From positions 1-64,000 of the forward strand of contig CAJQUW010003463.1 in the NCBI GenBank assembly GCA_907163375.1: 64,000 nucleotides of DNA. The letters run 5' to 3'. The first letter of the stretch is position 1. Each line of letters opens with the position of its first letter. Below the pieces are notes generated by a model. The model was not told the DNA's origin and did not search any database. It saw only the letters and a list, made by a program, of their open reading frames with translations. The translations under genes and the position numbers were made by a program. Below are positions 8,184 to 64,000 of this stretch, one piece after another. Origin of the DNA: Prostheceraeus crozeri (lineage: Eukaryota; Platyhelminthes; Polycladida; Euryleptidae).

Positions 8184-8665
8184 CACTTGCCGTCATCAAA
8201 CATATGACGATGGGCTCCTCATGGCTGAGGCCAGTGAGTGACATTTGCCGTATTTCATTACTAGTCAGCTGCGTTCTTGTATGTTGTGACGAGATGAACT
8301 CGTCATATTCAGTGAGTAACATGTGGTTTATTCCGTTTTCAGTCAGTTGCGTTTATGGAAAGTATGACAACTGCACTTGTCATTCTCAGTTGAAGGCAAA
8401 CAGTCTATTTGTCTACCTTTCACTTGCGTTCATGAAACTCGTTCTTGACTTCGTCACTGAGAGTTGCAGATCATTTCGCTACCAGTTCGTTATGTTCATG
8501 AAAGTTATGACGAGACCTGTTGTGCATTTCGCTGCCAGTCAGCTGAGTTTTTGAATGCTATGACGAGCAGAACTCATCATTGTCAGCAAGAGCCATGTAG
8601 CTCATTTTCTTATCAGCCAATTGCTCTTATGAAAATTGGGAACATGATTGAGTTCAGAACATCAA
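8184..8665 (+). repeat. Diverged internal sub-repeats within one satellite unit (example copy)
   Basis: In the copy starting at 8,113, related blocks begin at about 8184 (CACTTGCCGTC), 8266 (CAGCTGCGTTC), 8344 (CAGTTGCGTTT), 8421 (CACTTGCGTTC), 8483 (CAGTTCGTTATG), 8540 (CAGCTGAGTTT) and 8618 (CAATTGCTCTT). Spacings are 82, 78, 77, 62, 57 and 78 bp. Most blocks continue with a TTCATGAAA-like word, then TATGACGAG, then an ACTCGTCATT-like word. The unit therefore seems to have grown from a short ancestral repeat and was later amplified as a whole, making this a higher-order repeat. The other half of the unit (about 8,690-9,240) shows no such ladder. Every copy carries the same block. Confidence 0.75.
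8287..8305. repeat. Hairpin-forming inverted repeats in the satellite unit (example copy)
   Basis: TGACGAG and CTCGTCA flank a 5-base loop here. In the same copy, CGTCAT/ATGACG pairs across 8,191-8,209, GGCGA/TCGCC across 8,726-8,741 and TTGAAT/ATTCAA across 9,104-9,120. All four are kept in the well-resolved copies. Short inverted repeats are common in satellites; a role is not shown. Confidence 0.7.
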
Positions 8666-11600
8666 CTTTGATTTAAAAGTTGAAATGAGTCACATGATGC
8701 AATATTTGATGTTTGGCCTAATTTTGGCGATTTTGCTCGCCTACGGCTAGGTCTATATAATGCCATAGCTAGTCAATAAAAAGCAGTATAATCCTCAAAA
8801 ACTAACTATAACTAAATAAAATGAAATGTACCACAAACGTTTCGTCCTCGGCGTGTTCACTGCGAATGATTACAAAAATTTGTATCCTATGCATTCATAT
8901 TCCTGGATTTGTAATCATCCGCAGTAAACCAGCCGAGGGCGAACCGTATGTGGTACATTTTATTTTATTTTACATTTGTCGCATTTTATTCGAATAATTC
9001 GGTTCGGAATAGGATCGGCTCACACTTTTGGTCACTTGACTGATATCAAACGATAGACAAAATGATTAGCGTCACTCAGTATTAGACTAGCGTTCACAAC
9101 AGCTTGAATGGAAAATTCAAGATGTCGTGCAAACATATTTGGCGCAAATTATCATCACTAACTTAGTTTTAACTGAGTCGATGCCTTGGGTAAGTCGAAA
9201 ACCTCGATTTCAGATATTCACGCCTTATATGATCTGCTTTTTTCGAATATTTTTAAGTATGTTTTGATTTGATTTTAATTTACTCTTTTTGTCATTGTCA
9301 ATTTGCCATCAGTCACTTGCCGTCATCAAACATATGACGATGGGCTCCTCATGGCTGAGGCCAGTGAGTGACATTTGCCGTATTTCATTACTAGTCAGCT
9401 GCGTTCTTGTATGTTGTGACGAGATGAACTCGTCATATTCAGTGAGTAACATGTGGTTTATTCCGTTTTCAGTCAGTTGCGTTTATGGAAAGTATGACAA
9501 CTGCACTTGTCATTCTCAGTTGAAGGCAAACAGTCTATTTGTCTACCTTTCACTTGCGTTCATGAAACTCGTTCTTGACTTCGTCACTGAGAGTTGCAGA
9601 TCATTTCGCTACCAGTTCGTTATGTTCATGAAAGTTATGACGAGACCTGTTGTGCATTTCGCTGCCAGTCAGCTGAGTTTTTGAATGCTATGACGAGCAG
9701 AACTCATCATTGTCAGCAAGAGCCATGTAGCTCATTTTCTTATCAGCCAATTGCTCTTATGAAAATTGGGAACATGATTGAGTTCAGAACATCAACTTTG
9801 ATTTAAAAGTTGAAATGAGTCACATGATGCAATATTTGATGTTTGGCCTAATTTTGGCGATTTTGCTCGCCTACGGCTAGGTCTATATAATGCCATAGCT
9901 AGTCAATAAAAAGCAGTATAATCCTCAAAAACTAACTATAACTAAATAAAATGAAATGTACCACAAACGTTTCGTCCTCGGCGTGTTCACTGCGAATGAT
10001 TACAAAAATTTGTATCCTATGCATTCATATTCCTGGATTTGTAATCATCCGCAGTAAACCAGCCGAGGGCGAACCGTATGTGGTACATTTTATTTTATTT
10101 TACATTTGTCGCATTTTATTCGAATAATTCGGTTCGGAATAGGATCGGCTCACACTTTTGGTCACTTGACTGATATCAAACGATAGACAAAATGATTAGC
10201 GTCACTCAGTATTAGACTAGCGTTCACAACAGCTTGAATGGAAAATTCAAGATGTCGTGCAAACATATTTGGCGCAAATTATCATCACTAACTTAGTTTT
10301 AACTGAGTCGATGCCTTGGGTAAGTCGAAAACCTCGATTTCAGATATTCACGCCTTATATGATCTGCTTTTTCGAATATTTTTAAGTATGTTTTGATTTG
10401 ATTTTAATTTACTCTTTTTGTCATTGTCAATTTGCCATCAGTCACTTGCCGTCATCAAACATATGACGATGGGCTCCTCATGGCTGAGGCCAGTGAGTGA
10501 CATTTGCCGTATTTCATTACTAGTCAGCTGCGTTCTTGTATGTTGTGACGAGATGAACTCGTCATATTCAGTGAGTAACATGTGGTTTATTCCGTTTTCA
10601 GTCAGTTGCGTTTATGGAAAGTATGACAACTGCACTTGTCATTCTCAGTTGAAGGCAAACAGTCTATTTGTCTACCTTTCACTTGCGTTCATGAAACTCG
10701 TTCTTGACTTCGTCACTGAGAGTTGCAGATCATTTCGCTACCAGTTCGTTATGTTCATGAAAGTTATGACGAGACCTGTTGTGCATTTCGCTGCCAGTCA
10801 GCTGAGTTTTTGAATGCTATGACGAGCAGAACTCATCATTGTCAGCAAGAGCCATGTAGCTCATTTTCTTATCAGCCAATTGCTCTTATGAAAATTGGGA
10901 ACATGATTGAGTTCAGAACATCAACTTTGATTTAAAAGTTGAAATGAGTCACATGATGCAATATTTGATGTTTGGCCTAATTTTGGCGATTTTGCTCGCC
11001 TACGGCTAGGTCTATATAATGCCATAGCTAGTCAATAAAAAGCAGTATAATCCTCAAAAACTAACTATAACTAAATAAAATGAAATGTACCACAAACGTT
11101 TCGTCCTCGGCGTGTTCACTGCGAATGATTACAAAAATTTGTATCCTATGCATTCATATTCCTGGATTTGTAATCATCCGCAGTAAACCAGCCGAGGGCG
11201 AACCGTATGTGGTACATTTTATTTTATTTTACATTTGTCGCATTTTATTCGAATAATTCGGTTCGGAATAGGATCGGCTCACACTTTTGGTCACTTGACT
11301 GATATCAAACGATAGACAAAATGATTAGCGTCACTCAGTATTAGACTAGCGTTCACAACAGCTTGAATGGAAAATTCAAGATGTCGTGCAAACATATTTG
11401 GCGCAAATTATCATCACTAACTTAGTTTTAACTGAGTCGATGCCTTGGGTAAGTCGAAAAACCTCGATTTCAGATATTCACGCCTTATATGATCTGCTTT
11501 TTCGAATATTTTTAAGTATGTTTTTGATTTGATTTTAATTTACTCTTTTTGTCATTGTCAATTTGCCATCAGTCACTTGCCGTCATCAAACATATGACGA

Positions 11601-14600
11601 TGGGCTCCTCATGGCTGAGGCCAGTGAGTGACATTTGCCGTATTTCATTACTAGTCAGCTGCGTTCTTGTATGTTGTGACGAGATGAACTCGTCATATTC
11701 AGTGAGTAACATGTGGTTTATTCCGTTTTCAGTCAGTTGCGTTTATGGAAAGTATGACAACTGCACTTGTCATTCTCAGTTGAAGGCAAACAGTCTATTT
11801 GTCTACCTTTCACTTGCGTTCATGAAACTCGTTCTTGACTTCGTCACTGAGAGTTGCAGATCATTTCGCTACCAGTTCGTTATGTTCATGAAAGTTATGA
11901 CGAGACCTGTTGTGCATTTCGCTGCCAGTCAGCTGAGTTTTTGAATGCTATGACGAGCAGAACTCATCATTGTCAGCAAGAGCCATGTAGCTCATTTTCT
12001 TATCAGCCAATTGCTCTTATGAAAATTGGGAACATGATTGAGTTCAGAACATCAACTTTGATTTAAAAGTTGAAATGAGTCACATGATGCAATATTTGAT
12101 GTTTGGCCTAATTTTGGCGATTTTGCTCGCCTACGGCTAGGTCTATATAATGCCATAGCTAGTCAATAAAAAGCAGTATAATCCTCAAAAACTAACTATA
12201 ACTAAATAAAATGAAATGTACCACAAACGTTTCGTCCTCGGCGTGTTCACTGCGAATGATTACAAAAATTTGTATCCTATGCATTCATATTCCTGGATTT
12301 GTAATCATCCGCAGTAAACCAGCCGAGGGCGAACCGTATGTGGTACATTTTATTTTATTTTACATTTGTCGCATTTTATTCGAATAATTCGGTTCGGAAT
12401 AGGATCGGCTCACACTTTTGGTCACTTGACTGATATCAAACGATAGACAAAATGATTAGCGTCACTCAGTATTAGACTAGCGTTCACAACAGCTTGAATG
12501 GAAAATTCAAGATGTCGTGCAAACATATTTGGCGCAAATTATCATCACTAACTTAGTTTTAACTGAGTCGATGCCTTGGGTAAGTCGAAAACCTCGATTT
12601 CAGATATTCACGCCTTATATGATCTGCTTTTTCGAATATTTTTAAGTATGTTTTGATTTGATTTTAATTTACTCTTTTTGTCATTGTCAATTTGCCATCA
12701 GTCACTTGCCGTCATCAAACATATGACGATGGGCTCCTCATGGCTGAGGCCAGTGAGTGACATTTGCCGTATTTCATTACTAGTCAGCTGCGTTCTTGTA
12801 TGTTGTGACGAGATGAACTCGTCATATTCAGTGAGTAACATGTGGTTTATTCCGTTTTCAGTCAGTTGCGTTTATGGAAAGTATGACAACTGCACTTGTC
12901 ATTCTCAGTTGAAGGCAAACAGTCTATTTGTCTACCTTTCACTTGCGTTCATGAAACTCGTTCTTGACTTCGTCACTGAGAGTTGCAGATCATTTCGCTA
13001 CCAGTTCGTTATGTTCATGAAAGTTATGACGAGACCTGTTGTGCATTTCGCTGCCAGTCAGCTGAGTTTTTGAATGCTATGACGAGCAGAACTCATCATT
13101 GTCAGCAAGAGCCATGTAGCTCATTTTCTTATCAGCCAATTGCTCTTATGAAAATTGGGAACATGATTGAGTTCAGAACATCAACTTTGATTTAAAAGTT
13201 GAAATGAGTCACATGATGCAATATTTGATGTTTGGCCTAATTTTGGCGATTTTGCTCGCCTACGGCTAGGTCTATATAATGCCATAGCTAGTCAATAAAA
13301 AGCAGTATAATCCTCAAAAACTAACTATAACTAAATAAAATGAAATGTACCACAAACGTTTCGTCCTCGGCGTGTTCACTGCGAATGATTACAAAAATTT
13401 GTATCCTATGCATTCATATTCCTGGATTTGTAATCATCCGCAGTAAACCAGCCGAGGGCGAACCGTATGTGGTACATTTTATTTTATTTTACATTTGTCG
13501 CATTTTATTCGAATAATTCGGTTCGGAATAGGATCGGCTCACACTTTTGGTCACTTGACTGATATCAAACGATAGACAAAATGATTAGCGTCACTCAGTA
13601 TTAGACTAGCGTTCACAACAGCTTGAATGGAAAATTCAAGATGTCGTGCAAACATATTTGGCGCAAATTATCATCACTAACTTAGTTTTAACTGAGTCGA
13701 TGCCTTGGGTAAGTCGAAAACCTCGATTTCAGATATTCACGCCTTATATGATCTGCTTTTTCGAATATTTTTAAGTATGTTTTGATTTGATTTTAATTTA
13801 CTCTTTTTGTCATTGTCAATTTGCCATCAGTCACTTGCCGTCATCAAACATATGACGATGGGCTCCTCATGGCTGAGGCCAGTGAGTGACATTTGCCGTA
13901 TTTCATTACTAGTCAGCTGCGTTCTTGTATGTTGTGACGAGATGAACTCGTCATATTCAGTGAGTAACATGTGGTTTATTCCGTTTTCAGTCAGTTGCGT
14001 TTATGGAAAGTATGACAACTGCACTTGTCATTCTCAGTTGAAGGCAAACAGTCTATTTGTCTACCTTTCACTTGCGTTCATGAAACTCGTTCTTGACTTC
14101 GTCACTGAGAGTTGCAGATCATTTCGCTACCAGTTCGTTATGTTCATGAAAGTTATGACGAGACCTGTTGTGCATTTCGCTGCCAGTCAGCTGAGTTTTT
14201 GAATGCTATGACGAGCAGAACTCATCATTGTCAGCAAGAGCCATGTAGCTCATTTTCTTATCAGCCAATTGCTCTTATGAAAATTGGGAACATGATTGAG
14301 TTCAGAACATCAACTTTGATTTAAAAGTTGAAATGAGTCACATGATGCAATATTTGATGTTTGGCCTAATTTTGGCGATTTTGCTCGCCTACGGCTAGGT
14401 CTATATAATGCCATAGCTAGTCAATAAAAAGCAGTATAATCCTCAAAAACTAACTATAACTAAATAAAATGAAATGTACCACAAACGTTTCGTCCTCGGC
14501 GTGTTCACTGCGAATGATTACAAAAATTTGTATCCTATGCATTCATATTCCTGGATTTGTAATCATCCGCAGTAAACCAGCCGAGGGCGAACCGTATGTG

Positions 14601-17600
14601 GTACATTTTATTTTATTTTACATTTGTCGCATTTTATTCGAATAATTCGGTTCGGAATAGGATCGGCTCACACTTTTGGTCACTTGACTGATATCAAACG
14701 ATAGACAAAATGATTAGCGTCACTCAGTATTAGACTAGCGTTCACAACAGCTTGAATGGAAAATTCAAGATGTCGTGCAAACATATTTGGCGCAAATTAT
14801 CATCACTAACTTAGTTTTAACTGAGTCGATGCCTTGGGTAAGTCGAAAACCTCGATTTCAGATATTCACGCCTTATATGATCTGCTTTTTCGAATATTTT
14901 TAAGTATGTTTTGATTTGATTTTAATTTACTCTTTTTGTCATTGTCAATTTGCCATCAGTCACTTGCCGTCATCAAACATATGACGATGGGCTCCTCATG
15001 GCTGAGGCCAGTGAGTGACATTTGCCGTATTTCATTACTAGTCAGCTGCGTTCTTGTATGTTGTGACGAGATGAACTCGTCATATTCAGTGAGTAACATG
15101 TGGTTTATTCCGTTTTCAGTCAGTTGCGTTTATGGAAAGTATGACAACTGCACTTGTCATTCTCAGTTGAAGGCAAACAGTCTATTTGTCTACCTTTCAC
15201 TTGCGTTCATGAAACTCGTTCTTGACTTCGTCACTGAGAGTTGCAGATCATTTCGCTACCAGTTCGTTATGTTCATGAAAGTTATGACGAGACCTGTTGT
15301 GCATTTCGCTGCCAGTCAGCTGAGTTTTTGAATGCTATGACGAGCAGAACTCATCATTGTCAGCAAGAGCCATGTAGCTCATTTTCTTATCAGCCAATTG
15401 CTCTTATGAAAATTGGGAACATGATTGAGTTCAGAACATCAACTTTGATTTAAAAGTTGAAATGAGTCACATGATGCAATATTTGATGTTTGGCCTAATT
15501 TTGGCGATTTTGCTCGCCTACGGCTAGGTCTATATAATGCCATAGCTAGTCAATAAAAAGCAGTATAATCCTCAAAAACTAACTATAACTAAATAAAATG
15601 AAATGTACCACAAACGTTTCGTCCTCGGCGTGTTCACTGCGAATGATTACAAAAATTTGTATCCTATGCATTCATATTCCTGGATTTGTAATCATCCGCA
15701 GTAAACCAGCCGAGGGCGAACCGTATGTGGTACATTTTATTTTATTTTACATTTGTCGCATTTTATTCGAATAATTCGGTTCGGAATAGGATCGGCTCAC
15801 ACTTTTGGTCACTTGACTGATATCAAACGATAGACAAAATGATTAGCGTCACTCAGTATTAGACTAGCGTTCACAACAGCTTGAATGGAAAATTCAAGAT
15901 GTCGTGCAAACATATTTGGCGCAAATTATCATCACTAACTTAGTTTTAACTGAGTCGATGCCTTGGGTAAGTCGAAAACCTCGATTTCAGATATTCACGC
16001 CTTATATGATCTGCTTTTTCGAATATTTTTAAGTATGTTTTGATTTGATTTTAATTTACTCTTTTTGTCATTGTCAATTTGCCATCAGTCACTTGCCGTC
16101 ATCAAACATATGACGATGGGCTCCTCATGGCTGAGGCCAGTGAGTGACATTTGCCGTATTTCATTACTAGTCAGCTGCGTTCTTGTATGTTGTGACGAGA
16201 TGAACTCGTCATATTCAGTGAGTAACATGTGGTTTATTCCGTTTTCAGTCAGTTGCGTTTATGGAAAGTATGACAACTGCACTTGTCATTCTCAGTTGAA
16301 GGCAAACAGTCTATTTGTCTACCTTTCACTTGCGTTCATGAAACTCGTTCTTGACTTCGTCACTGAGAGTTGCAGATCATTTCGCTACCAGTTCGTTATG
16401 TTCATGAAAGTTATGACGAGACCTGTTGTGCATTTCGCTGCCAGTCAGCTGAGTTTTTGAATGCTATGACGAGCAGAACTCATCATTGTCAGCAAGAGCC
16501 ATGTAGCTCATTTTCTTATCAGCCAATTGCTCTTATGAAAATTGGGAACATGATTGAGTTCAGAACATCAACTTTGATTTAAAAGTTGAAATGAGTCACA
16601 TGATGCAATATTTGATGTTTGGCCTAATTTTGGCGATTTTGCTCGCCTACGGCTAGGTCTATATAATGCCATAGCTAGTCAATAAAAAGCAGTATAATCC
16701 TCAAAAACTAACTATAACTAAATAAAATGAAATGTACCACAAACGTTTCGTCCTCGGCGTGTTCACTGCGAATGATTACAAAAATTTGTATCCTATGCAT
16801 TCATATTCCTGGATTTGTAATCATCCGCAGTAAACCAGCCGAGGGCGAACCGTATGTGGTACATTTTATTTTATTTTACATTTGTCGCATTTTATTCGAA
16901 TAATTCGGTTCGGAATAGGATCGGCTCACACTTTTGGTCACTTGACTGATATCAAACGATAGACAAAATGATTAGCGTCACTCAGTATTAGACTAGCGTT
17001 CACAACAGCTTGAATGGAAAATTCAAGATGTCGTGCAAACATATTTGGCGCAAATTATCATCACTAACTTAATTTTAACTGAGTCGATGCCTTGGGTAAG
17101 TCGAAAACCTCGATTTCAGATATTCACGCCTTATATGATCTGCTTTTTCGAATATTTTTAAGTATGTTTTGATTTGATTTTAATTTACTCTTTTTGTCAT
17201 TGTCAATTTGCCATCAGTCACTTGCCGTCATCAAACATATGACGATGGGCTCCTCATGGCTGAGGCCAGTGAGTGACATTTGCCGTATTTCATTACTAGT
17301 CAGCTGCGTTCTTGTATGTTGTGACGAGATGAACTCGTCATATTCAGTGAGTAACATGTGGTTTATTCCGTTTTCAGTCAGTTGCGTTTATGGAAAGTAT
17401 GACAACTGCACTTGTCATTCTCAGTTGAAGGCAAACAGTCTATTTGTCTACCTTTCACTTGCGTTCATGAAACTCGTTCTTGACTTCGTCACTGAGAGTT
17501 GCAGATCATCTCGCTACCAGTTCGTTATGTTCATGAAAGTTATGACGAGACCTGTTGTGCATTTCGCTGCCAGTCAGCTGAGTTTTTGAATGCTATGACG

Positions 17601-20600
17601 AGCAGAACTCATCATTGTCAGCAAGAGCCATGTAGCTCATTTTCTTATCAGCCAATTGCTCTTATGAAAATTGGGAACATGATTGAGTTCAGAACATCAA
17701 CTTTGATTTAAAAGTTGAAATGAGTCACATGATGCAATATTTGATGTTTGGCCTAATTTTGGCGATTTTGCTCGCCTACGGCTAGGTCTATATAATGCCA
17801 TAGCTAGTCAATAAAAAGCAGTATAATCCTCAAAAAACTAACTAGAACTAAATAAAATGAAATGTACCACAAACGTTTCGTCCTCGGCGTGTTCACTGCG
17901 AATGATTACAAAAATTTGTATCCTATGCATTCATATTCCTGGATTTGTAATCATCCGCAGTAAACCAGCCGAGGGCGAACCGTATGCGGTACATTTTATT
18001 TTATTTTACATTTGTCGCATTTTATTCGAATAATTCGGTTCGGAATAGGATCGGCTCACACTTTTTGGTCACTTGACTGATATCAAACGATAGACAAAAT
18101 GATTAGCGTCACTCAGTATTAGACTAGCGTTCACAACAGCTTGAATGGAAAATTCAAGATGTCGTGCAAACATATTTGGCGCAAATTATCATCACTAACT
18201 TAGTTTTAACTGAGTCGATGCCTTGGGTAAGTCGAAAACCTCGATTTCAGATATTCACGCCTTATATGATCTGCTTTTTCGAATATTTTTAAGTATGTTT
18301 TGATTTGATTTTAATTTACTCTTTTTGTCATTGTCAATTTGCCATCAGTCACTTGCCGTCATCAAACATATGACGATGGGCTCCTCATGGCTGAGGCCAG
18401 TGAGTGACATTTGCCGTATTTCATTACTAGTCAGCTGCGTTCTTGTATGTTGTGACGAGATGAACTCGTCATATTCAGTGAGTAACATGTGGTTTATTCC
18501 GTTTTCAGTCAGTTGCGTTTATGGAAAGTATGACAACTGCACTTGTCATTCTCAGTTGAAGGCAAACAGTCTATTTGTCTACCTTTCACTTGCGTTCATG
18601 AAACTCGTTCTTGACTTCGTCACTGAGAGTTGCAGATCATTTCGCTACCAGTTCGTTATGTTCATGAAAGTTATGACGAGACCTGTTGTGCATTTCGCTG
18701 CCAGTCAGCTGAGTTTTTTGAATGCTATGACGAGCAGAACTCATCATTGTCAGCAAGAGCCATGTAGCTCATTTTCTTATCAGCCAATTGATCTTATGAA
18801 AATTGGGAACATGATTTAGTTCAGAACATCAACTTTTGATTTAAAAGTTGAAATGAGTCACATGATGCAATATTTGATGTTTGGCCTAATTTTGGCGATT
18901 TTGCTCGCCTACGGCTAGGTCTATATAATGCCATAGCTAGTCAATAAAAAGCAGTATAATCCTCAAAAACTAACTATAACTAAATAAAATGAAATGTACC
19001 ACAAACGTTTCGTCCTCGGCGTGTTCACTGCGAATGATTACAAAAATTTGTATCCTATGCATTCATATTCCTGGATTTGTAATCATCCGCAGTAAACCAG
19101 CCGAGGGCGAACCGTATGTGGTACATTTTATTTTATTTTACATTTGTCGCATTTTATTCGAATAATTCGGTTCGGAATAGGATCGGCTCACACTTTTGGT
19201 CACTTGACTGATATCAAACGATAGACAAAATGATTAGCGTCACTCAGTATTAGACTAGCGTTCACAACAGCTTGAATGGAAAATTCAAGATGTCGTGCAA
19301 ACATATTTGGCGCAAATTATCATCACTAACTTAGTTTTAACTGAGTCGATGCCTTGGGTAAGTCGAAAACCTCGATTTCAGATATTCACGCCTTATATGA
19401 TCTGCTTTTTCGAATATTTTTAAGTATGTTTTGATTTGATTTTAATTTACTCTTTTTGTCATTGTCAATTTGCCATCAGTCACTTGCCGTCATCAAACAT
19501 ATGACGATGGGCTCCTCATGGCTGAGGCCAGTGAGTGACATTTGCCGTATTTCATTACTAGTCAGCTGCGTTCTTGTATGTTGTGACGAGATGAACTCGT
19601 CATATTCAGTGAGTAACATGTGGTTTATTCCGTTTTCAGTCAGTTGCGTTTATGGAAAGTATGACAACTGCACTTGTCATTCTCAGTTGAAGGCAAACAG
19701 TCTATTTGTCTACCTTTCACTTGCGTTCATGAAACTCGTTCTTGACTTCGTCACTGAGAGTTGCAGATCATTTCGCTACCAGTTCGTTATGTTCATGAAA
19801 GTTATGACGAGACCTGTTGTGCATTTCGCTGCCAGTCAGCTGAGTTTTTGAATGCTATGACGAGCAGAACTCATCATTGTCAGCAAGAGCCATGTAGCTC
19901 ATTTTCTTATCAGCCAATTGCTCTTATGAAAATTGGGAACATGATTGAGTTCAGAACATCAACTTTGATTTAAAAGTTGAAATGAGTCACATGATGCAAT
20001 ATTTGATGTTTGGCCTAATTTTGGCGATTTTGCTCGCCTACGGCTAGGTCTATATAATGCCATAGCTAGTCAATAAAAAGCAGTATAATCCTCAAAAACT
20101 AACTATAACTAAATAAAATGAAATGTACCACAAACGTTTCGTCCTCGGCGTGTTCACTGCGAATGATTACAAAAATTTGTATCCTATGCATTCATATTCC
20201 TGGATTTGTAATCATCCGCAGTAAACCAGCCGAGGGCGAACCGTATGTGGTACATTTTATTTTATTTTACATTTGTCGCATTTTATTCGAATAATTCGGT
20301 TCGGAATAGGATCGGCTCACACTTTTGGTCACTTGACTGATATCAAACGATAGACAAAATGATTAGCGTCACTCAGTATTAGACTAGCGTTCACAACAGC
20401 TTGAATGGAAAATTCAAGATGTCGTGCAAACATATTTGGCGCAAATTATCATCACTAACTTAGTTTTAACTGAGTCGATGCCTTGGGTAAGTCGAAAACC
20501 TCGATTTCAGATATTCACGCCTTATATGATCTGCTTTTTCGAATATTTTTAAGTATGTTTTGATTTGATTTTAATTTACTCTTTTTGTCATTGTCAATTT

Positions 20601-23600
20601 GCCATCAGTCACTTGCCGTCATCAAACATATGACGATGGGCTCCTCATGGCTGAGGCCAGTGAGTGACATTTGCCGTATTTCATTACTAGTCAGCTGCGT
20701 TCTTGTATGTTGTGACGAGATGAACTCGTCATATTCAGTGAGTTAACATGTGGTTTATTCCGTTTTCAGTCAGTTGCGTTTATGGAAAGTATGACAACTG
20801 CACTTGTCATTCTCAGTTGAAGGCAAACAGTCTATTTGTCTACCTTTCACTTGCGTTCATGAAACTCGTTCTTGACTTCGTCACTGAGAGTTGCAGATCA
20901 TTTCGCTACCAGTTCGTTATGTTCATGAAAGTTATGACGAGACCTGTTGTGCATTTCGCTGCCAGTCAGCTGAGTTTTTGAATGCTATGACGAGCAGAAC
21001 TCATCATTGTCAGCAAGAGCCATGTAGCTCATTTTCTTATCAGCCAATTGCTCTTATGAAAATTGGGAACATGATTGAGTTCAGAACATCAACTTTGATT
21101 TAAAAGTTGAAATGAGTCACATGATGCAATATTTGATGTTTGGCCTAATTTTGGCGATTTTGCTCGCCTACGGCTAGGTCTATATAATGCCATAGCTAGT
21201 CAATAAAAGCAGTATAATCCTCAAAAACTAACTATAACTAAATAAAATGAAATGTACCACAAACGTTTCGTCCTCGGCGTGTTCACTGCGAATGATTACA
21301 AAAATTTGTATCCTATGCATTCATATTCCTGGATTTGTAATCATCCGCAGTAAACCAGCCGAGGGCGAACCGTATGTGGTACATTTTATTTTATTTTACA
21401 TTTGTCGCATTTTATTCGAATAATTCGGTTCGGAATAGGATCGGCTCACACTTTTGGTCACTTGACTGATATCAAACGATAGACAAAATGATTAGCGTCA
21501 CTCAGTATTAGACTAGCGTTCACAACAGCTTGAATGGAAAATTCAAGATGTCGTGCAAACATATTTGGCGCAAATTATCATCACTAACTTAGTTTTAACT
21601 GAGTCGATGCCTTGGGTAAGTCGAAAACCTCGATTTCAGATATTCACGCCTTATATGATCTGCTTTTTCGAATATTTTTAAGTATGTTTTGATTTGATTT
21701 TAATTTACTCTTTTTGTCATTGTCAATTTGCCATCAGTCACTTGCCGTCATCAAACATATGACGATGGGCTCCTCATGGCTGAGGCCAGTGAGTGACATT
21801 TGCCGTATTTCATTACTAGTCAGCTGCGTTCTTGTATGTTGTGACGAGATGAACTCGTCATATTCAGTGAGTAACATGTGGTTTATTCCGTTTTCAGTCA
21901 GTTGCGTTTATGGAAAGTATGACAACTGCACTTGTCATTCTCAGTTGAAGGCAAACAGTCTATTTGTCTACCTTTCACTTGCGTTCATGAAACTCGTTCT
22001 TGACTTCGTCACTGAGAGTTGCAGATCATTTCGCTACCAGTTCGTTATGTTCATGAAAGTTATGACGAGACCTGTTGTGCATTTCGCTGCCAGTCAGCTG
22101 AGTTTTTGAATGCTATGACGAGCAGAACTCATCATTGTCAGCAAGAGCCATGTAGCTCATTTTCTTATCAGCCAATTGCTCTTATGAAAATTGGGAACAT
22201 GATTGAGTTCAGAACATTCAACTTTGATTTAAAAGTTGAAATGAGTCACATGATGCAATATTTGATGTTTGGCCTAATTTTGGCGATTTTGCTCGCCTAC
22301 GGCTAGGTCTATATAATGCCATAGCTAGTCAATAAAAAGCAGTATAATCCTCAAAAACTAACTATAACTAAATAAAATGAAATGTACCACAAACGTTTCG
22401 TCCTCGGCGTGTTCACTGCGAATGATTACAAAAATTTGTATCCTATGCATTCATATTCCTGGATTTGTAATCATCCGCAGTAAACCAGCCGAGGGCGAAC
22501 CGTATGTGGTACATTTTATTTTATTTTACATTTGTCGCATTTTATTCGAATAATTCGGTTCGGAATAGGATCGGCTCACACTTTTGGTCACTTGACTGAT
22601 ATCAAACGATAGACAAAATGATTAGCGTCACTCAGTATTAGACTAGCGTTCACAACAGCTTGAATGGAAAATTCAAGATGTCGTGCAAACATATTTGGCG
22701 CAAATTATCATCACTAACTTAGTTTTAACTGAGTCGATGCCTTGGGTAAGTCGAAAACCTCGATTTCAGATATTCACGCCTTATATGATCTGCTTTTTCG
22801 AATATTTTTAAGTATGTTTTGATTTGATTTTAATTTACTCTTTTTGTCATTGTCAATTTGCCATCAGTCACTTGCCGTCATCAAACATATGACGATGGGC
22901 TCCTCATGGCTGAGGCTAGTGATGACATTTGCCGTATTTCATTACTAGTCAGCTGCGTTCTTGTATGTTGTGACGAGATGAACTCGTCATATTCAGTGAG
23001 TAACATGTGGTTTATTCCGTTTTCAGTCAGTTGCGTTTATGGAAAGTATGACAACTGCACTTGTCATTCTCAGTTGAAGGCAAACAGTCTATTTGTCTAC
23101 CTTTCACTTGCGTTCATGAAACTCGTTCTTGACTTCGTCACTGAGAGTTGCAGATCATTTCGCTACCAGTTCGTTATGTTCATGAAAGTTATGACGAGAC
23201 CTGTTGTGCATTTCGCTGCCAGTCAGCTGAGTTTTTGAATGCTATGACGAGCAGAACTCATCATTGTCAGCAAGAGCCATGTAGCTCATTTTCTTATCAG
23301 CCAATTGCTCTTATGAAAATTGGGAACATGATTGAGTTCAGAACATCAACTTTGATTTAAAAGTTGAAATGAGTCACATGATGCAATATTTGATGTTTTG
23401 GCCTAATTTTGGCGATTTTGCTCGCCTACGGCTAGGTCTATATAATGCCATAGCTAGTCAATAAAAAGCAGTATAATCCTCAAAAACTAACTATAACTAA
23501 ATAAAATGAAATGTACCACAAACGTTTCGTCCTCGGCGTGTTCACTGCGAATGATTACAAAAATTTGTATCCTATGCATTCATATTCCTGGATTTGTAAT

Positions 23601-37865: not shown

Positions 37866-39230
37866 AAGTATGAATGTTTGGTCAATTCGTTCACCGACAC
37901 CTACAGACAAAACTACGAAATACAGAAAATTAAGATTATCACCATTGAATCAGGCTCGTGTTAAGGTTTCAGGTGATATAATTGTTTTCGAATTCGAACA
38001 TCAATTTGTGCAATTTCATTCAATTTACACTTTTACCAACTTTTACGCCACTTTCTTGATAAAATGTTCAACAACGGTCAACTGCTCACAGCTTCTGTTA
38101 CAGCTCACTTCTGTTGTATTAATGCTTGTGCTTTCGAGTTTGAGCTTAAAACAATACAGGTGTTATCAGCTCCAAGAATATGCAAGTTTTATCAAAATCG
38201 GCCCATTCGTTCACTGACAAACTTCACATTTGTATTATTCCCAAAGTCAGCCATTGCGTCAGTCATCATTTTTTGTTTGATGGTGTGTTTTACAGGCAGG
38301 TTGATGGCTGTGCCAAAGTTGTCTTGACCCAATATTTGCTGACATTTCCTTATGATACTTGGAGAAGAAGTTGTCTGCAGAGTTCAGCAGCAGCATTGAT
38401 TTCTATTTTAGATACGTTGATGATTATTTTCTTATTGTCCCATCCTTTGAGACGGCAAAACAATTGTTGAGTGTTTTTAAATCTGTACATTCGTCCATTC
38501 AGTTTACATATGAGTTTGAGTAAGAGGACAAATTGGCATTTCTAGATGTGTGTTGCAAACGTCGCCTAGATGAGTCGATCTGCACTTCCGTTTACAGGAA
38601 TAATACATGGATTGGATTGTGCACCAGTTACTACAACTTTGTGCCACACAGTTATAAGGTTGGTCTGATTAGATCTTTAAGCTGCCGCGCTTACCGCCTA
38701 TGTTCGCATGATTTGCTGGAATGTGAGTTACAATATATAGAGGAAGCTATTGTTTCCAATGGTTATCTTCTACACATTATTCTTCCTTTGATGCAGACTC
38801 CTATTGTGAAGGTACGTCCTGAGGTTGTCCCTGAAAAGATATGTCATTTTGAAGTTTCCATTTATTTGTGACCAGGATGCGGATTTTGTAAAGCGGTCGT
38901 TTGAAAAGTGTTTGAATGTTTGTCCTACTGTCGAACCTCGTGTCATCTTTGGGACTGCGTCTGTTCCTATTTCCTCTCCTAAAGACAAACTGTCTGTTCC
39001 TGCCCATACTAACGCAATCTATGGTTTATCGTGTGCTCGTGGAATCAGGTACATTGGCAGAACCAGGAAGATGTCTGCAAGACAGGATGAAGGAACACGT
39101 GACCGTTTGGCTTCGTAAGGGAAATAAGTTGCCTTCCAGATCCAAAGTGAAGCCGTCTAGCACAGTCACGGATCACTTCCAAAGATGTACAGTTGCTGAT
39201 TTTTCAAAGGTGGACTCGTAGTTTAGTGAT
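37866..39230 (+). pseudogene. Penelope-like element: reverse transcriptase plus GIY-YIG endonuclease, decayed
   Basis: RT fragments in order: FLFDGVFYRQVDGC (palm, near 38,270-38,310), FRYVDDYFLI with catalytic YVDD at 38,413-38,424, then FLDVCCKRR and TSVYRNNTWIGL with YKVGLIRSL (38,533-38,700), the characteristic Penelope C-terminal palm/thumb. The GIY-YIG end follows: IYGLSCARGIRYIGRTR near 39,020-39,070, then CLQDRMKEHVTVWL and DHFQRC in the next frame, ending about 39,220. An in-frame TAA at 38,521 interrupts the RT after FEFE, and at least two frameshifts lie near 38,850 and 39,065. The N-terminal part (37,866-38,260) is scrambled across frames. The element is inactive, but the order RT then GIY-YIG identifies the class clearly. 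Confidence 0.9.
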
Positions 39231-39528
39231 TTATTTACTGTACATATTTTTTCATCTCTTACGTATTTATGAAGCAATCAGTATTAAATGTTTTTCTCTT
39301 GATCTCTATATCCAAAAGGAGTCCGTAATGGATTTACATTTGCCGTGGTGCTAGTTTCTTTCTTTACATTGTTCTATATTTGACTGCTATGTTGCAGCAT
39401 TGAAGTCAAGCTGTAATCCAACACTGATGTCAGATCATGTGCATCAAGTTCTCTCACAATTCCGTGTACGACATGAAATAGAACGGTTCGAAAGGCCTCG
39501 TCGCAGACATGATGATCGAAGTTCTTAT

Positions 39529-40346
39529 CATAGAGTAGGTATATTAGGTAGAGTGGTGACTCCGAATCTATTAAATCCCCAATGTGTATACACTTTCGAT
39601 TTTATTAAATGAACTCGAGGGGATATAGTTGGTAATTGCTACCAAATGTGAAATTGCAAATTTTTGCAGTTTTGAAGAAATTGCCACCGAATTGAGTGAT
39701 GATGACTGTAATGCAGAAGAAATGATGGTATTTTACAGATTCTCAGTGTAATGACAGCCTTGGAGATTTAATGTTTGTCAAATAAGCAATTCAATGGGTT
39801 CCTATTACTTTCATGCTCAACCTCAAGATTATTTTCTTCAGCGTGATCGTATCACAGGCAACCTGCCACTGGCAGAGCAAAATCACATAATCAAAGACAA
39901 TGACTTCAATTAACTTTGAAAGATGTAAATCGGCCCACATCAGTATTCAGATTCAAGAAATGAAGCAAGAATTTAGTGAATCATAAAATCATTCCGGTGA
40001 AAATTGAATTAATAACTTGAAATTTCAGCCATGAAAGCACGAATAATATCGCGACATTTTCATTAAGACTTCTAATATAATGCGGATCATGAAATTCCCT
40101 TGCAAATTAGCTTTATTTCTGCTTAGTTAAGATGCTTATATCCAAAATGGTTCATACTACTCATATAGAGGAGTCATCTCGGTAGTATATAAATTGCCAA
40201 AATTTTGACTTTTTAAAACTGCTCAAGTAATGTTTTGGACTACGGGAACGCAATCTCCGCAAAAACTGAATCTTCTCATATAAAAATTTTTACTGCATGC
40301 AGATACATTTTTCAGTCGACACTCTATCTATATATACTACTCTATG
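39529..40346 (+). mobile_element. hAT-like MITE, copy 1 (818 bp), inverted partner of copy 2
   Basis: The ends are perfect inverted repeats for 10 bp (CATAGAGTAG / CTACTCTATG) and similar for about 32 bp, including an internal GGTAGAGTG-like word. No open frame suggests a transposase. The 8 bp outside the left end are GTTCTTAT (39,521-39,528) and outside the right end ACCACGCC (40,347-40,354). They do not match each other, but each matches a flank of copy 2. An 8-bp duplication and CA...TG-type ends suggest hAT. Confidence 0.85.
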
Positions 40347-40354
40347 ACCACGCC

Positions 40355-41480
40355 GTCGACTCAAAGAATGCACAGCTCCTGGTGCTCATTGATTTTGATT
40401 ATTTTTCTCCGTATTCTCACTTATCTTGTTCTAAAAAAATTATATCTTGATATCTTGATCTTGGCACCACAAGTTCCACAACTTTTTAGCAAATGTGCTA
40501 GAAGTTAAATAACTAACGTTAGGAAAGTCTACAAAACGTTTGCAAAGGTGCTGGACCTATTTACAAAATGAAAAATGAATGAATAAGAAGCAAAATGAAT
40601 CAATAACATGAAGTCATTTCATAGGCCTACCTGACATCATGTTGATGTCAAAGGCCGCTGTCACACAGAATAATTGTGCAAAAAAATAAATAAAATAAAT
40701 AATAATAATAGATAATATAATTAAAATAAATAATAATCTTCCATCTTCCATCTTCCATTTGGGATTTCCCTTTAGTTGCAGGTAGTAAAGAAAACAACCT
40801 ATCACACAGAAAAATTCATCTTCCATCGTCCGTCACGCTGTCACACAGGAAAAGTCATAAGGCGTCGTCCATCGAACATAAGGCATGAAATTATGTGACT
40901 GATGAAGTATATTTCCATGAGCCGTCAGGCGTCAGTCGCGAGACTGTTCAAAAAATAAGACAACGTAAAGTGACGTCTGAAGGAAGATTTAGGAAACTGT
41001 GATTTGCGAAGAGAAGCAATCAGAAAACAGCCTTTGTTCAAAATGACAATGTCGGATGAAGACAGTAGTCATAGCAACGGTAAATAGTGAAAAAATGGAT
41101 TTCCCGGTGATTGCGGTACGTGGAAGATGGACGATGGAAGGCGGAAGGCGGAAGACAGCAGATGAAAATCGTCTCATCACGCCTTATGGAAGACGCCTTG
41201 TGAAGAATGTGCAAAGAGGCGAGTGACATGGAAGATGGAAGACGCCTTATTCTGTGTGACAGCGGCCTAACAGGCTATCCAAATTCCTGCTGGACAAAAT
41301 AAGATAGCTGTAAGAAAACATACTCTGCAATTCATTGAAAATTTAAATCAACTCGGACGTTTATGCGTTTCTAGTTGCCTGCAATGATGGAAAAAGAAAA
41401 TGCTATTTCCGGTTTCTGTGAAGCATTTGATGTAAATTGACTATGAAAGAATTGAGGCCCTTTGGATATTTTGTATAGAA
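40355..41480. other. Segment inferred to be inverted relative to its ancestral state
   Basis: This is the spacer between the two inverted 818-bp-type MITEs. Exchanged target duplications at its edges (see findings) imply it was flipped by recombination between the two copies. It contains the MITE at 40,653-41,267. Confidence 0.75.
40653..41267. mobile_element. MITE with GGCCGCTGTCACACAGAATAA ends
   Basis: The left end starts GGCCGCTGTCACACAGAAT; the right end, reverse complemented, starts identically and runs on into AAGGCGTCTTCC. Internal copies of the terminal word (ATCACACAGAAAAATTCATC near 40,801, CGCTGTCACACAGGAAAAG near 40,838) suggest one related MITE nested in another. The interior holds an A/T-only tract (about 40,678-40,737) and repeated CTTCCATC/GATGGAAG words. 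There is no coding content and no clear target duplication. Confidence 0.8.
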
Positions 41481-41488
41481 GTAAGAAC

Positions 41489-42282
41489 TATAGATTAGGG
41501 ATATATAGGTAGAGTGTCGACTGAAAAATGTATCTGCATGCAGTGAAAATTTTTATATGAGAAGATTCAGTTTTTGCGGAGATTGCGTTCCGTAGTCCAA
41601 AAAATTACTTGAGCAGTTTTAAAAAAGTCAAAATTTTGGCAATTTATATACTACCGAGATGACTCCTCTATATGAGTAGTATGAAACATTTTGGATATAA
41701 GCATCTTAACTAAGCAGAAATAAAGCTAATTTGCAAGGGAATTTCATGATCCGCATTATATTAGAAGTCTTAATGAAAATGTCGCGATATTATTCGTGCT
41801 TTTTATTAATTCAATTTTCACCGGAATGATTTTATGATTCACTAAATTCTTGCTTCATTTCTTGAATCTGAATACTGATGTGGGCCGATTTACATCTTTC
41901 AAAGTTAATTGAAGTCATTGTCTTTTCATTATGTGATTTTTCTCTGCCAGTGGCAGGTTGCCTGTGATACGATCACGCTGAAGAAAATAATCTTGAGGTT
42001 GAGCATGAAAGTAATAGGAACCCATTGAATTGCTTATTTGACAAACATTAAATCTCCAAGGCTGTCATTACACTGAGAATCTGTAAAATACCATCATTTC
42101 TTCTGCATTACAGTCATCATCACTCAATTCGGTGGCAATTTCTTGAAAACTGCAAAAAATTTGCAATTTCACATTTGGTAGCAATTACCAACTATATCCC
42201 CTCGAGTTCATTTAATAAAATCGAAAGTGTATACACATTGAGGATTTAATAGATTCGGAGTTACCACTCTACCTACTCTATG
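41489..42282 (-). mobile_element. hAT-like MITE, copy 2 (794 bp), inverted orientation
   Basis: This is the reverse complement of 39,529-40,346 with about 95% or better identity by eye; differences include a short indel near the outer end. The outer end is CTACTCTATG at 42,273-42,282. The inner end has drifted to TATAGATTAG. The flanks are GTAAGAAC (41,481-41,488, reverse complement GTTCTTAC) and GGCGTGGT (42,283-42,290, reverse complement ACCACGCC). Confidence 0.85.
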
Positions 42283-42290
42283 GGCGTGGT

Positions 42291-59843: not shown

Positions 59844-61655
59844 AATGTGTATTTTATCAACTTGAACAGCAAGCTGGGTAATCTATGAATCCGTGAATTA
59901 CATTTGCATCCTTATAATGCCTGGGCAACTTCCATTCATTTAGCGATCCTTCAAGGCTGGTAGAACTAAGATCAATTAGCTTTCAAATTTATGTAGAAAG
60001 CAATACACAGTGCTTGTTTCTGTTTGTTCGATTTAAGAATAGATGCCATAAAATATTTACAACCAGGGCATTCAAACATGAGAACAAAGTGTCTTTTACA
60101 TGTCTCTACCTTGCAACGCACAATCAATAAATGAAAACATGTGTCTGTCCCAATTACCAGAATCGGTTGGTGTAATTCCTGAGAACGCTGATCTCGCACA
60201 TTCTTCCAGGGTTCGATGACGATGGTCTCTAACTCTGCTTCCATTTGGAGTAGTCATAATCTCAGTTCATCTTACTTGTAAGTCCCGCTTAATCGAAAAC
60301 TTGAATTTGGAAAATAGTTCTTCAATGGGATTAAACATCGGTGAATATGGGGAAGTCTTTTAACAGAGTGACCATTCTTCAAAACTGCCTCCTCTACCCG
60401 ACGATGTGCTGGAGCGTTGTCGAAGATGAAGCATGCAGTATCTTCAAGTGTCATCGTTGAACATTGTTCAATGAATTGGTTGAATTGGACATGTCACTTT
60501 GACGTCTTCTCGATTCCTATCAACCGGCTGTTGAGAAAGAAGCTTCAGCGAGTGACAATGTAAGTTCCATCCAAGTAGCGATCAATTGTAGCAACGGAGA
60601 CATGATTGCCAGTTAATTGCTGAAAGCGCTCCTGAATCTGCTTCAGTGTGAATGCAGGATTCTCGTCCACTATAGCAGTCAGCATTTGACGATCACTGAC
60701 CCCGACTTTCTTCCTTGAGCCTCCTCGCTTACTCATAGGAGAGCTATCTTTCCTTGCAATGCTTCGGACAGTCTTTATTTTGATGCCGAGTGCATCTCCT
60801 AGATGAACCAGACTTCCGCCATTTCGGTTGCAGTCCAAGATGCGATGTTTGTCTTCGTGTGACACTTTCTGATAGCTCCTGCTCATGCTGACAATGGAAA
60901 ATAAAATGAAATACATGTGCTCGCATTTGAAATCAAATATGTACAAATCAAAATTTGAAATTGTTGACCATAGAGATCCTCCTGTAGAGTGAGTCATGCA
61001 TCATTGTACATGTGGACGATGAATAATGAGAAAAATCACTGTGGAGTGTGTACTGCATTTCTGTTTTTAAATTAGACATCAATTCCACCCATAGAAGTAG
61101 ATAATAACAAGACTAGAATGGAAGTTTGATATCTTGCTTATGTACAATGATGGCACAAAGAAAAATCTATGGTTTGTACATCAATTTCGATCTATTACAT
61201 TACATCATAGTCAAACTGTCTATCAAGTTAGTTGTAGAAGTTGTTGAGAGCAAATTGCAGGTTTTTCTTGAGGAGAATTTTAAGTGAGATGGTAGTATCG
61301 CTTCATATGAAATAGCCTACTATTCCATGGTTTTCCAAAGTTTTGAAAGCTGATACTTCAAATTATTCAAATATTTTGAAAACTGATTAAAAGAAACCTG
61401 AACATAGAGTCTTTTTGAAGTAAAACAGATAATCCTAGTTTCTCAGCCTCTGATTTCAAGATGGAGTAATGTATGTTCTTTAAATCGGTTTTACAAGTTG
61501 CTTATGTATCTGATTGTATTCTTGATAGATTATAGGAGCGATATTTGAATGATCGCTAAATAAATGGAAGTTGCCCAGGCATTTTAAGGATGCAAATGTA
61601 ATTCACGGGTTCATAGATTACCCAGCTTGCTATTCAAGTTGATAAAATACACATT
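59844..61655 (-). mobile_element. Tc1/IS630-like DNA transposon, about 1.8 kb
   Basis: The terminal inverted repeats are about 109 bp: 59,844-59,952 and 61,548-61,655 are reverse complements with only a few differences (shared ATGTGTATTTTATCAACTTG, CAAGCTGGGTAATCTATGAA, GCCTGGGCAACTTCCATT). The decayed transposase lies between them on the minus strand. The outer edges are set by where similarity stops; a clean TA duplication was not seen, so each end may be off by a few bases. The N-terminal 500 bp (61,000-61,547) are non-coding. Confidence 0.85.
59972..60886 (-). pseudogene. Tc1/IS630-like transposase, frameshifted and internally deleted
   Basis: The likely start is the ATG at 60,886 (MSRSYQKVSHEDKHRILD), which begins the helix-turn-helix region (GGSLVHLGDALGIKIKTVR). 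A second HTH follows (MLTAIVDENPAFTLKQIQER, then VSVATIDRYLDG). A frameshift lies at about 60,545, and the segment with the first catalytic aspartate appears to be missing. The second catalytic region is clear: TACFIFDNAPAHRRVEEAV (60,440-60,390), then GHSVKRLP. One more frameshift near 60,352 displaces the SPMFNPIEELF motif with the third acidic residue into another frame. Trailing fragments reach about 60,100. The DDE_3-type layout and NAPAHR motif make the family secure; the copy is inactive. Confidence 0.85.
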
Positions 61656-62090: not shown

Positions 62091-64000
62091 CCGTATATAC
62101 TCTAATTGGCGCCCCGGCGCTTATTTCATTCCCCGTTTTTTAACCGGGCGCTTAAAAGAGGCCAGGCGGCTATTAGAGACCAGGCGCTTATCAAAATGGG
62201 CTATTTCCTTCCGTGTGTTTGCAACAAATTTGCTAACTCAAAAAGCGAAGAAGTTTACATACGTCTATTTTTAAAGGTAAGCTATAAGTACTCAGCAAGG
62301 AAGCATGAATACGTTGTACTACACATGTGTTGATACTATTGATCATAATCACTACCGAGTATATTCCATGCCCATTACGAACACTAACAATTGGTTCATT
62401 TAAGGAAAGCAAAAACGAAAGAGTATGCTAAAGATAAAAAAATTATTCAAACTCGAATAACAGGGGAAACGGGAACGTGAACGCAAAATGTAAGCAAGAA
62501 TCATGACTCACCAAGACTGTCTAATTACTTTCATCCGAGTCACAGTACTCTATGCCATCACTATCCTCGTAAATGACGGCACAATCAGACAAATCGCTCT
62601 CACAATCAGTTTCAACTTCCATCGCACTTTGGTTAGTGAGCCGTTGACGAAGCATATTAGCTGCTTCTGGATTTTGTCTCACGAATTCAATCAAATTGTC
62701 CTCGGAGCCATCAGTAGGCCTAGCATTGGTCACACCACACTGCTTCATTGAGGCAATTATTTGTTCCTTTGGAATGTTATTCAAGGCTCATTTTACCCAC
62801 TTGACGATGCATTCAAACGACGGGGGCCGTAAGTTACCACTTGGAGTGAAAGTATGGTCACCGTTTGCAATCCATTCCTCGTAAGATTTCGAGAAGTTGC
62901 ATTTGAAGCTTCTGTTCCACGAAACGTCAGGAGCTTGGATTTTTCCAGTGTAACTAGCTGGAATTACAACAGAATCGATTCTCATTGCTCGTAGCTGTGC
63001 CTTAGTTCTTTCGGACACATGACAGCGAAAGGCGTCCCAAATTTAAAGTCTTTTGGCAAAGGAAAAATTTCCAATGATTCGTTTGAGATAATCAGACGTC
63101 AATTCATCATCCATCCAACTCTTAGCGGAGTACGCGCACTCCACATCTTTGATTTCTTCTACTTCTTTAATTGGTCTCTTTCTCGGTATAACAATGAAGG
63201 GTTTGCATTTAGCTCCATCTGCACGAGCAGTTAAAACCACAGTAATTCTCAGTTTCTCATGACCAGTCGATTTAATCGGGACTTCTCGGCTTCCAATTTT
63301 TGTCTACTGTAGTGGTCGCAATCGGCTCCACCCACACTGGTGTCTCATCTATCACAAATATTACATTGTTTTCATAATTGCCGGAACGTCGTACTCCGCG
63401 GAGGTAAAATATGAACGCGACTATTTTCTCCATGCAGTCACGAGGAACCTTTTGCGAAATCGTCGTCCTTCTTCTCAGAACAAATCCATGTCGAGATAGA
63501 AACTTTTGAAGCCATCCATTGCTTGCCTTGAGCTCATTCTCTCCTTCAATAGCAAACAATGCTAAAGCTTTTCGCTTTATCATGCTTCTTGTAATATATA
63601 ATCGGTCATCCTTGGAGCGAACGATCCATTCTACAAGTTTGTCTTCTAACTCAGGGGAACGAATTTTCTTTCATGCTCCACTGAATCTCTTCCGGTTTCT
63701 ATTTCCCATTTCATATTGCGCTTCCAATCGAGGTTTCGCTGTTCTCCATTCACGTATGCGTTTCGGATCAACCTTGAACTCTTTTGCAGTCTGTTCTACA
63801 CTATGAGTCTTCATTGAATTGGACAGGAAACGATCGTTGTGAATTCTTCTGTTCCATGCGGTGTGAGCTCGACTTCGAAAATTAATCAAATGACAACGTG
63901 CAGTTCAATCCAAATAAGTAACACTTTGGTTCAATCTAATTATTTGAAAATTTGACAAAGGGTTTATTTTTAGAGCAGCAACGCACGTAGCGCAAGGCAA
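62091..64000 (-). mobile_element. pogo/Tigger-like DNA transposon, left end and body
   Basis: The left terminus is CCGTATATACTCTAATTGGC, preceded by TA (62,089-62,090), the expected target of pogo elements. Sub-terminal GGCGCTTAT-type words repeat at about 62,116, 62,145, 62,165 and 62,184. The transposase follows on the minus strand. The other end lies beyond the window, so the right terminus and the duplication cannot be checked. Confidence 0.8.
62521..63889 (-). pseudogene. pogo-like (BrkDBD/CENP-B/DDE_1) transposase, lightly broken
   Basis: Order from the N-terminus: a Brinker-type helix-turn-helix (SVEQTAKEFKVDPKRIREW, about 63,800-63,740); a CENP-B-type helix-turn-helix (SPELEDKLVEWIVRSKDDR then NGWLQKFLSRHGFVLRRRT, about 63,655-63,450); and DDE_1 catalytic core with three aspartates, VIDETPVW (63,347-63,349), IWDAFRCH (63,034-63,036) and IQAPDVSW (62,926-62,928). 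It ends in an acidic tail (YEDSDGIEYCDSDESN). Lesions are few: in-frame TGA at 63,671-63,673, TAA at 63,043-63,045, TGA at 62,788-62,790 and one frameshift in an A run near 63,300. The first ATG is at about 63,814. About 450 codons in all, normal for the family; it resembles POGK-type architecture. Young but dead as read, unless some lesions are sequencing errors. Confidence 0.9.

Follow-up and report, generated by a model that had tools for sequence, protein, structure and literature searches.

A probable 1.14-kb microinversion between two inverted MITE copies with exchanged target site duplications in Prostheceraeus crozeri

In a window of 64,000 nucleotides from Prostheceraeus crozeri (part of contig C2874 in an assembly of 2.05 Gb and 14,165 contigs), two copies of one MITE lie in opposite orientation on either side of a 1,142-bp spacer, and in the assembled sequence this spacer is inverted relative to the DNA on its left. 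An initial annotation of the window had proposed the inversion of 40,347-41,488 from the target site duplications (TSDs) alone; it is now backed independently by paralogous empty sites, i.e. uninterrupted copies of the repeat that flanks the left-hand element. The origin that we consider probable, with good though not complete confidence, is a crossover between the inverted MITE copies together with gene conversion from arm to arm. The process is already well known and the locus is a small, clean example of it; what stands out is that paralogues in a single assembly reveal the order before inversion, and that the two arms have apparently been homogenised. The locus is made up as follows.

38,800-39,528, plus strand: dispersed, decayed, retroelement-like repeat that hosts element A (88 matching rows from the best 40 of 155 candidates).
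39,521-39,528, plus strand: target duplication A, outer copy, GTTCTTAT, probably the ancestral form as judged from the sequence and from uninterrupted repeat copies.
39,529-40,346, plus strand: MITE copy 1, 818 bp, with ends CATAGAGTAG...CTACTCTATG, now carrying TSD A at its 5' side and TSD B at its 3' side.
40,347-41,488, no strand assigned: spacer of 1,142 bp, reversed with respect to the left flank.
40,347-40,354, plus strand: target duplication B, inner copy, ACCACGCC, matching the reverse complement of 42,283-42,290 at 8 of 8 positions.
40,652-41,268, no strand assigned: passenger MITE in the inverted segment, with perfect 22-bp terminal inverted repeats (TIRs) at 40,652-40,673 and 41,247-41,268.
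41,441-41,488, minus strand: putative displaced 3' tail (~45 bp) of the left-flank repeat, now on the far side of the inversion; 25 other places match.
41,481-41,488, minus strand: target duplication A, inner copy, GTTCTTAC, read as carrying one later substitution.
41,489-42,282, minus strand: MITE copy 2, 794 bp, inverted, with ~9-10 bp lost near its 5' end and 18 bp lost internally.
42,283-42,290, minus strand: target duplication B, outer copy, ACCACGCC.

When rechecked in the sequence, the elements, coordinates and flanks of the initial annotation proved exact. Read in element orientation, copy 1 has the order GTTCTTAT / 39,529-40,346 / ACCACGCC and copy 2 the order ACCACGCC / 42,282 down to 41,489 / GTTCTTAC. 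As had been claimed, neither copy has matching flanks of its own (0 of 8 positions for copy 1 and 1 of 8 for copy 2, the latter counted by eye from the flanks), and the flanks match crosswise between the copies, with the 7 of 8 and 8 of 8 matches both recovered. The TSDs are therefore exchanged between the copies in the way seen in Galileo-type inversions, and homologous copies in opposite orientation lie at both breakpoints, as in an inversion of that type generated by ectopic recombination. Inverted alignment of copies 1 and 2 covers 805 columns at 95.8% identity including gaps; the other matches to copy 1 in the genome lie at 79-88%.

We used the repeat on the left flank to determine the original order at site A. 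Many of its matching rows stop exactly at 39,528, and 25 other places in the genome match the ~45 bp that close the spacer on the right (41,441-41,488; all 26 candidates scored). Several loci match both the left flank and the tail, with the two matches on opposite strands, and in C12196, C3514, C7711, C2428 and C7141 the overlap between the two is exactly the 8 bp of the TSD. We fetched 32 loci (25 chosen for their tail match and 7 left-flank matches absent from the tail list) and aligned to them a join query consisting of the left flank followed by the reverse-complemented right end of the spacer, with the target written once. The join query aligned across the junction in 28 of the 32 loci, namely 24 of the 25 chosen by tail and 4 of the 7 chosen by flank, although these 28 are not independent, some being alike (e.g. 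L094/L095 and L112/L113); the junction was not spanned in L098, L111, L114 and L117. Because the spanning loci run from the left flank into the reverse-complemented right end of the spacer, the spacer is inverted with respect to the left flank. Most simply, the sequence that followed the left flank before insertion is the one that today lies, on the opposite strand, at the far end of the spacer; the repeat appears to have been split by element A and its tail since carried across by the inversion.

The same loci show the state of the target. It is single in the spanning loci and reads GTTCTTAT in 22 of the 28, so that the uninverted sequence has at breakpoint A, as in Galileo-type inversions, a single target with neither deletion nor duplication, as seen on paralogous copies and not on the orthologous locus itself. 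Because this form prevails in the uninterrupted copies, T is most likely ancestral, and the one mismatch in the 7 of 8 match is best explained by a later mutation to C in the duplication on the spacer side.

The left-flank repeat itself gives a Penelope-like impression by eye. Pfam searches with three ORF pieces of the window copy returned no match and a fourth piece returned a lone match below cut-off (E 0.09); Pfam searches with pieces from three other loci, and a PDB search with one of these pieces, gave no identification. The reading frame over the reconstructed junction A is open, and it is equally open with the present spacer start. In 16 of the 32 fetched relatives about 50-60 additional bases separate the stretches that match on either side of ~39,408, and a short segment has probably been deleted there from the window copy.

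We searched the genome with the element itself in order to set the flanks of the pair against those of its family. Scoring the best 40 of 11,997 candidates gave 43 matching rows, 2 of which are the window's own copies; the regions around the other 41 were fetched, and 35 copies were near-complete at both ends. The TSD and divergence counts leave out copies whose match begins beyond query position 17 or stops short of position 805 of 818. With end shifts of up to 3 bp allowed, 20 of the 35 near-complete copies have an own TSD matching at 7 or more of 8 positions (12 of them at 8 of 8), and these represent 17 distinct sites, four copies having the same flanks; the other 15 fall below 7 of 8, with 3 at 6 of 8. 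In this family the absence of a self-match is not rare; a reciprocal match is.

The four copies with the same flanks (L018, L021, L022 and L028) agree in all 12 bp of flank on either side, GGTTGAAT and GGTTAAAT being next to the element, and the element appears there to have been copied within a larger repeat. Two further inverted pairs of the family were seen. In L030 (G000:C4051:110,199-112,629) the 3' ends lie together without a spacer; it was rejected as a pair like that of the window, as one of its copies is nested in the 3' terminal repeat of its partner, with its own duplication GTGTCGAC. The other, L044, looks like a degraded cluster.

Family members are ~800-855 bp long and have TIRs and an 8-bp TSD, which places them as MITEs of a superfamily with 8-bp TSDs (hAT or P). 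Over 19 target sites (the 17 distinct sites at 7 or more of 8, plus A and B), G stands at position 1 in 13, T at position 2 in 9 and A at position 7 in 11. The target preference of hAT elements is nTnnnnAn, and P-like target sites resemble those of the family as well; the combination of CA...TG ends, 8-bp duplications and target preference is compatible with either superfamily. Of the term hAT-type in the initial annotation, the 8-bp duplication is upheld by the 20 self-matching copies and the hAT label is not established.

The initial annotation held coincidence to be very unlikely, and the comparison with the family agrees. The probability of one 8 of 8 and one 7 of 8 or better reciprocal match, calculated from base composition, is ~1.5e-8. 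Among the 666 pairs that can be formed from 37 copies, 8 have reciprocal matches of at least 6 of 8: six are pairs of the four copies with the same flanks, one (6 of 8 and 6 of 8) joins two copies with similar intact duplications, and the window pair is the only reciprocal pair without self matches. A chance origin, in which two independent insertions lost their own duplications by decay and came to match crosswise by accident, could draw on the 15 of 35 relatives without a good TSD of their own, since missing TSDs are clearly not rare. However, it would have to accommodate the very low probability of the reciprocal match, and it leaves unexplained the continuity of the flanking repeat over the reconstructed site A, which is decisive for that site. 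A chance match of flanks was ruled out by the 666-pair control and by this continuity, and we attach practically no weight to it.

Within the spacer, the initial annotation had pointed to another MITE. This passenger belongs to a separate dispersed family, whose relatives gave 76 matching rows in the genome (best 40 of 1,228 candidates scored). The first 305 bp of the spacer had no match in the genome other than itself (one candidate), the first ~200 bp of the right flank had no other match among the best 40 of 92 candidates, and these genome searches with spacer start and right flank found no empty site for B. Element B appears to have inserted into DNA that is unique as far as searched, and the evidence for site B is its 8 of 8 duplication.

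No haplotig or second copy of the locus was seen, flank and spacer queries matching only themselves at 100% (best 40 candidates per search). The layout could in principle belong to the assembly and not to the chromosome: a spacer misjoined between near-identical 0.8-kb inverted repeats would yield exactly what is seen, split flanking repeat included, while the real chromosome had self-matching TSDs. Against this, contigs reach at least 1.9 Mb (from match coordinates) and no N occurs in the 117 fetched loci, which suggests long reads, and long reads would span the 2.8 kb in question. We therefore regard a flip introduced in assembly as improbable, somewhat more so than the transposase-dependent origins considered below.

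The likeness of the two copies is greater than separate insertion would predict. They differ by 2.4%, the nearest other sampled copy diverging from copy 1 by 10% and from copy 2 by 11%, and the median divergence in the family is about 12-13%. In a three-sequence alignment 52 derived substitutions were common to the pair and 12 private; in the family alignment 48 were common and 19 private, a private count that is inflated by gap placement at the 5' end. As two separate insertions predict ~12-13% divergence, a single crossover between diverged copies is insufficient, and because the pair is far too alike, either gene conversion between the arms or a transposase-mediated alternative is needed. 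The initial annotation had envisaged two insertions followed by one crossover; the inversion in this scheme stands, and its sufficiency does not survive the comparison of 2.4% with 10%.

The history of the family bears on the transposase-mediated alternatives. None of the 35 other sampled copies is less than 5.2% from their consensus, and independent copies among them lie at least 8.3% from their nearest neighbour; near-consensus copies, if existing, should outrank in the search those that were found. With no young copies among the 35 sampled, the family looks silent, and a recent second copy made by transposase is therefore unlikely.

Exchanged TSDs are described as arising in two ways, by ectopic recombination, which gives chimeric copies, or by insertion of a hybrid element, which gives identical copies (PMC2775673). 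In the second case, aberrant transposition from sister chromatids, only element A would have existed beforehand. The model predicts the same TSD layout along with the identical copies (PMC2775673), and copies 1 and 2 are indeed each other's closest relatives among those sampled, with ~50 derived substitutions in common. It would, however, require transposase at a time when the element was already ~6% off the family consensus, in a family without a young copy among the 35 sampled, and it predicts an even spread of differences, whereas the differences observed are densest in the outermost ~35 bp of either end.

We examined this unevenness by dividing the alignment. The outermost 36+34 columns contain 0 common and 5 private derived substitutions and the interior 52 common and 7 private (Fisher p=1e-4), the cut having been set with the data already in view (p between 1e-4 and 0.015 for the cut sizes tried) and the ends being short, AT-rich and alignment-dependent. 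Variability in the family is not much higher at the ends (7.6% and 8.5%) than in the interior (7.2%). As controls, four ordinary duplicates with common flanks gave shared:private counts of 6:18 at the ends and 233:119 in the interior (pooled, non-independent pairs), and one ordinary duplicate pair gave 13:0 and 60:1, i.e. no end shift. The contrast between ends and interior is therefore support, not proof, as one of the two control sets has a weaker shift of the same kind, and the argument from uneven differences against a hybrid element is weakened to that extent. Element edges without derived sites in common are what would be expected if conversion stops short of the edges. Taking both sides together, we think insertion of a hybrid element unlikely.

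The same observations apply to a recent local hop, in which copy B transposed from the nearby copy A and the spacer was flipped later by recombination. This is compatible with the crossover step of our preferred explanation and differs from it in the source of copy B, and it would account for the closeness of the pair (2.4% versus 10%) without gene conversion. It too requires recent transposase activity, in conflict with the lack of young copies among those sampled, and it sits poorly with element ends that have no derived site in common; we consider it about as doubtful as the hybrid element.

We prefer ectopic recombination with repeated gene conversion between the arms because the family seems silent and because the ends of the pair have no derived sites in common. 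In the proposed sequence of events, two copies of one MITE family would have come to lie ~1.1 kb apart in opposite orientation, element A having inserted into the retroelement-like repeat at GTTCTTAT and element B into unique DNA at ACCACGCC. A crossover between the inverted copies would then have reversed the spacer and exchanged a flank of one element for a flank of the other, and gene conversion, through the same arm-to-arm recombination, would have kept the interiors nearly alike while their relatives diverged. The inversion itself is seen in the assembled sequence; the orientation in the assembled chromosome would be the derived one, which implies that the spacer has flipped an odd number of times since the insertions. 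Recombination between copies already ~13% apart would be hampered, and conversion must therefore have set in early and taken place repeatedly, a difficulty for this explanation. From the ~50 common against 12-19 private derived substitutions, a tentative extension is that the pair has been in concerted evolution for most of its life, with many reversals of the spacer and both orientations perhaps still segregating, a possibility that we rate well below the crossover and conversion themselves.

The closest parallel is Galileo, which generated inversions 2j, 2q7 and 2z3 of Drosophila buzzatii (PMC2775673). As here, copies of one cut-and-paste element lie in opposite orientation at both breakpoints with exchanged TSDs, and uninverted chromosomes with a single-copy target are described, in detail for 2z3 (PMC2775673). 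The Galileo cases are polymorphic chromosomal inversions with 7-bp TSDs, whereas the present case is a 1.14-kb microinversion with 8-bp TSDs; and in 2z3 both copies are chimeric by comparison with other copies (PMC2775673), whereas here chimerism would be masked, the interiors being homogenised and parental copies for comparison being absent. In Atlantic cod, inverted repeats of a hAT-derived MITE lie at breakpoints and are proposed as drivers of inversion via ectopic recombination (PMC12368964); those inversions are large, with tandem MITE arrays, and ours is small, and the main text of the cod paper does not use the terms 'target site duplication' or 'TSD' (PMC12368964). Human/chimpanzee inversions likewise arose where copies of the same element family recombined and inverted the intervening sequence, but they involve L1 and Alu and were recognised by comparing two genomes, whereas the element here is a DNA transposon (PMC2603318). 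Human inversions mediated by inverted repeats also have a spacer flipped by recombining repeats, with signs of recurrence in 11 of 16 analysable cases; there the polymorphism was genotyped, and here one assembly was analysed (PMC3961182).

One assembly can therefore be enough to recognise a TE-mediated microinversion and to polarise it: where a breakpoint lies inside a dispersed repeat, the other copies of that repeat serve as the uninverted reference. The combination of an inverted TE pair, exchanged TSDs and a host repeat split on opposite strands could serve as a genome-wide recipe for counting small inversions. The locus also suggests that short inverted MITE pairs may keep recombining after their transposons have fallen silent.

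Elsewhere in the window there are further repeats. A long tandem array at ~4,780-23,240 has a unit of ~1.13 kb and carries nearly the same frame of 126-131 aa, spaced mostly by 1,129-1,131 bp or double that; the Tandem Repeats Finder run covers periods up to 500, and the unit is outside its range. At 59,844-61,655, a frame with matches to Tc1/Tc3-type transposase helix-turn-helix domains, all below Pfam cut-offs, lies between 111-bp inverted repeats that are 95% complementary, and this is probably a decayed Tc1/mariner element. At ~62,500-63,900 there are frames with a Tc5-type transposase DNA-binding domain (PF03221, above cut-off) and a weak DDE_1 match below cut-off, which look like a pogo/Tigger-type element.
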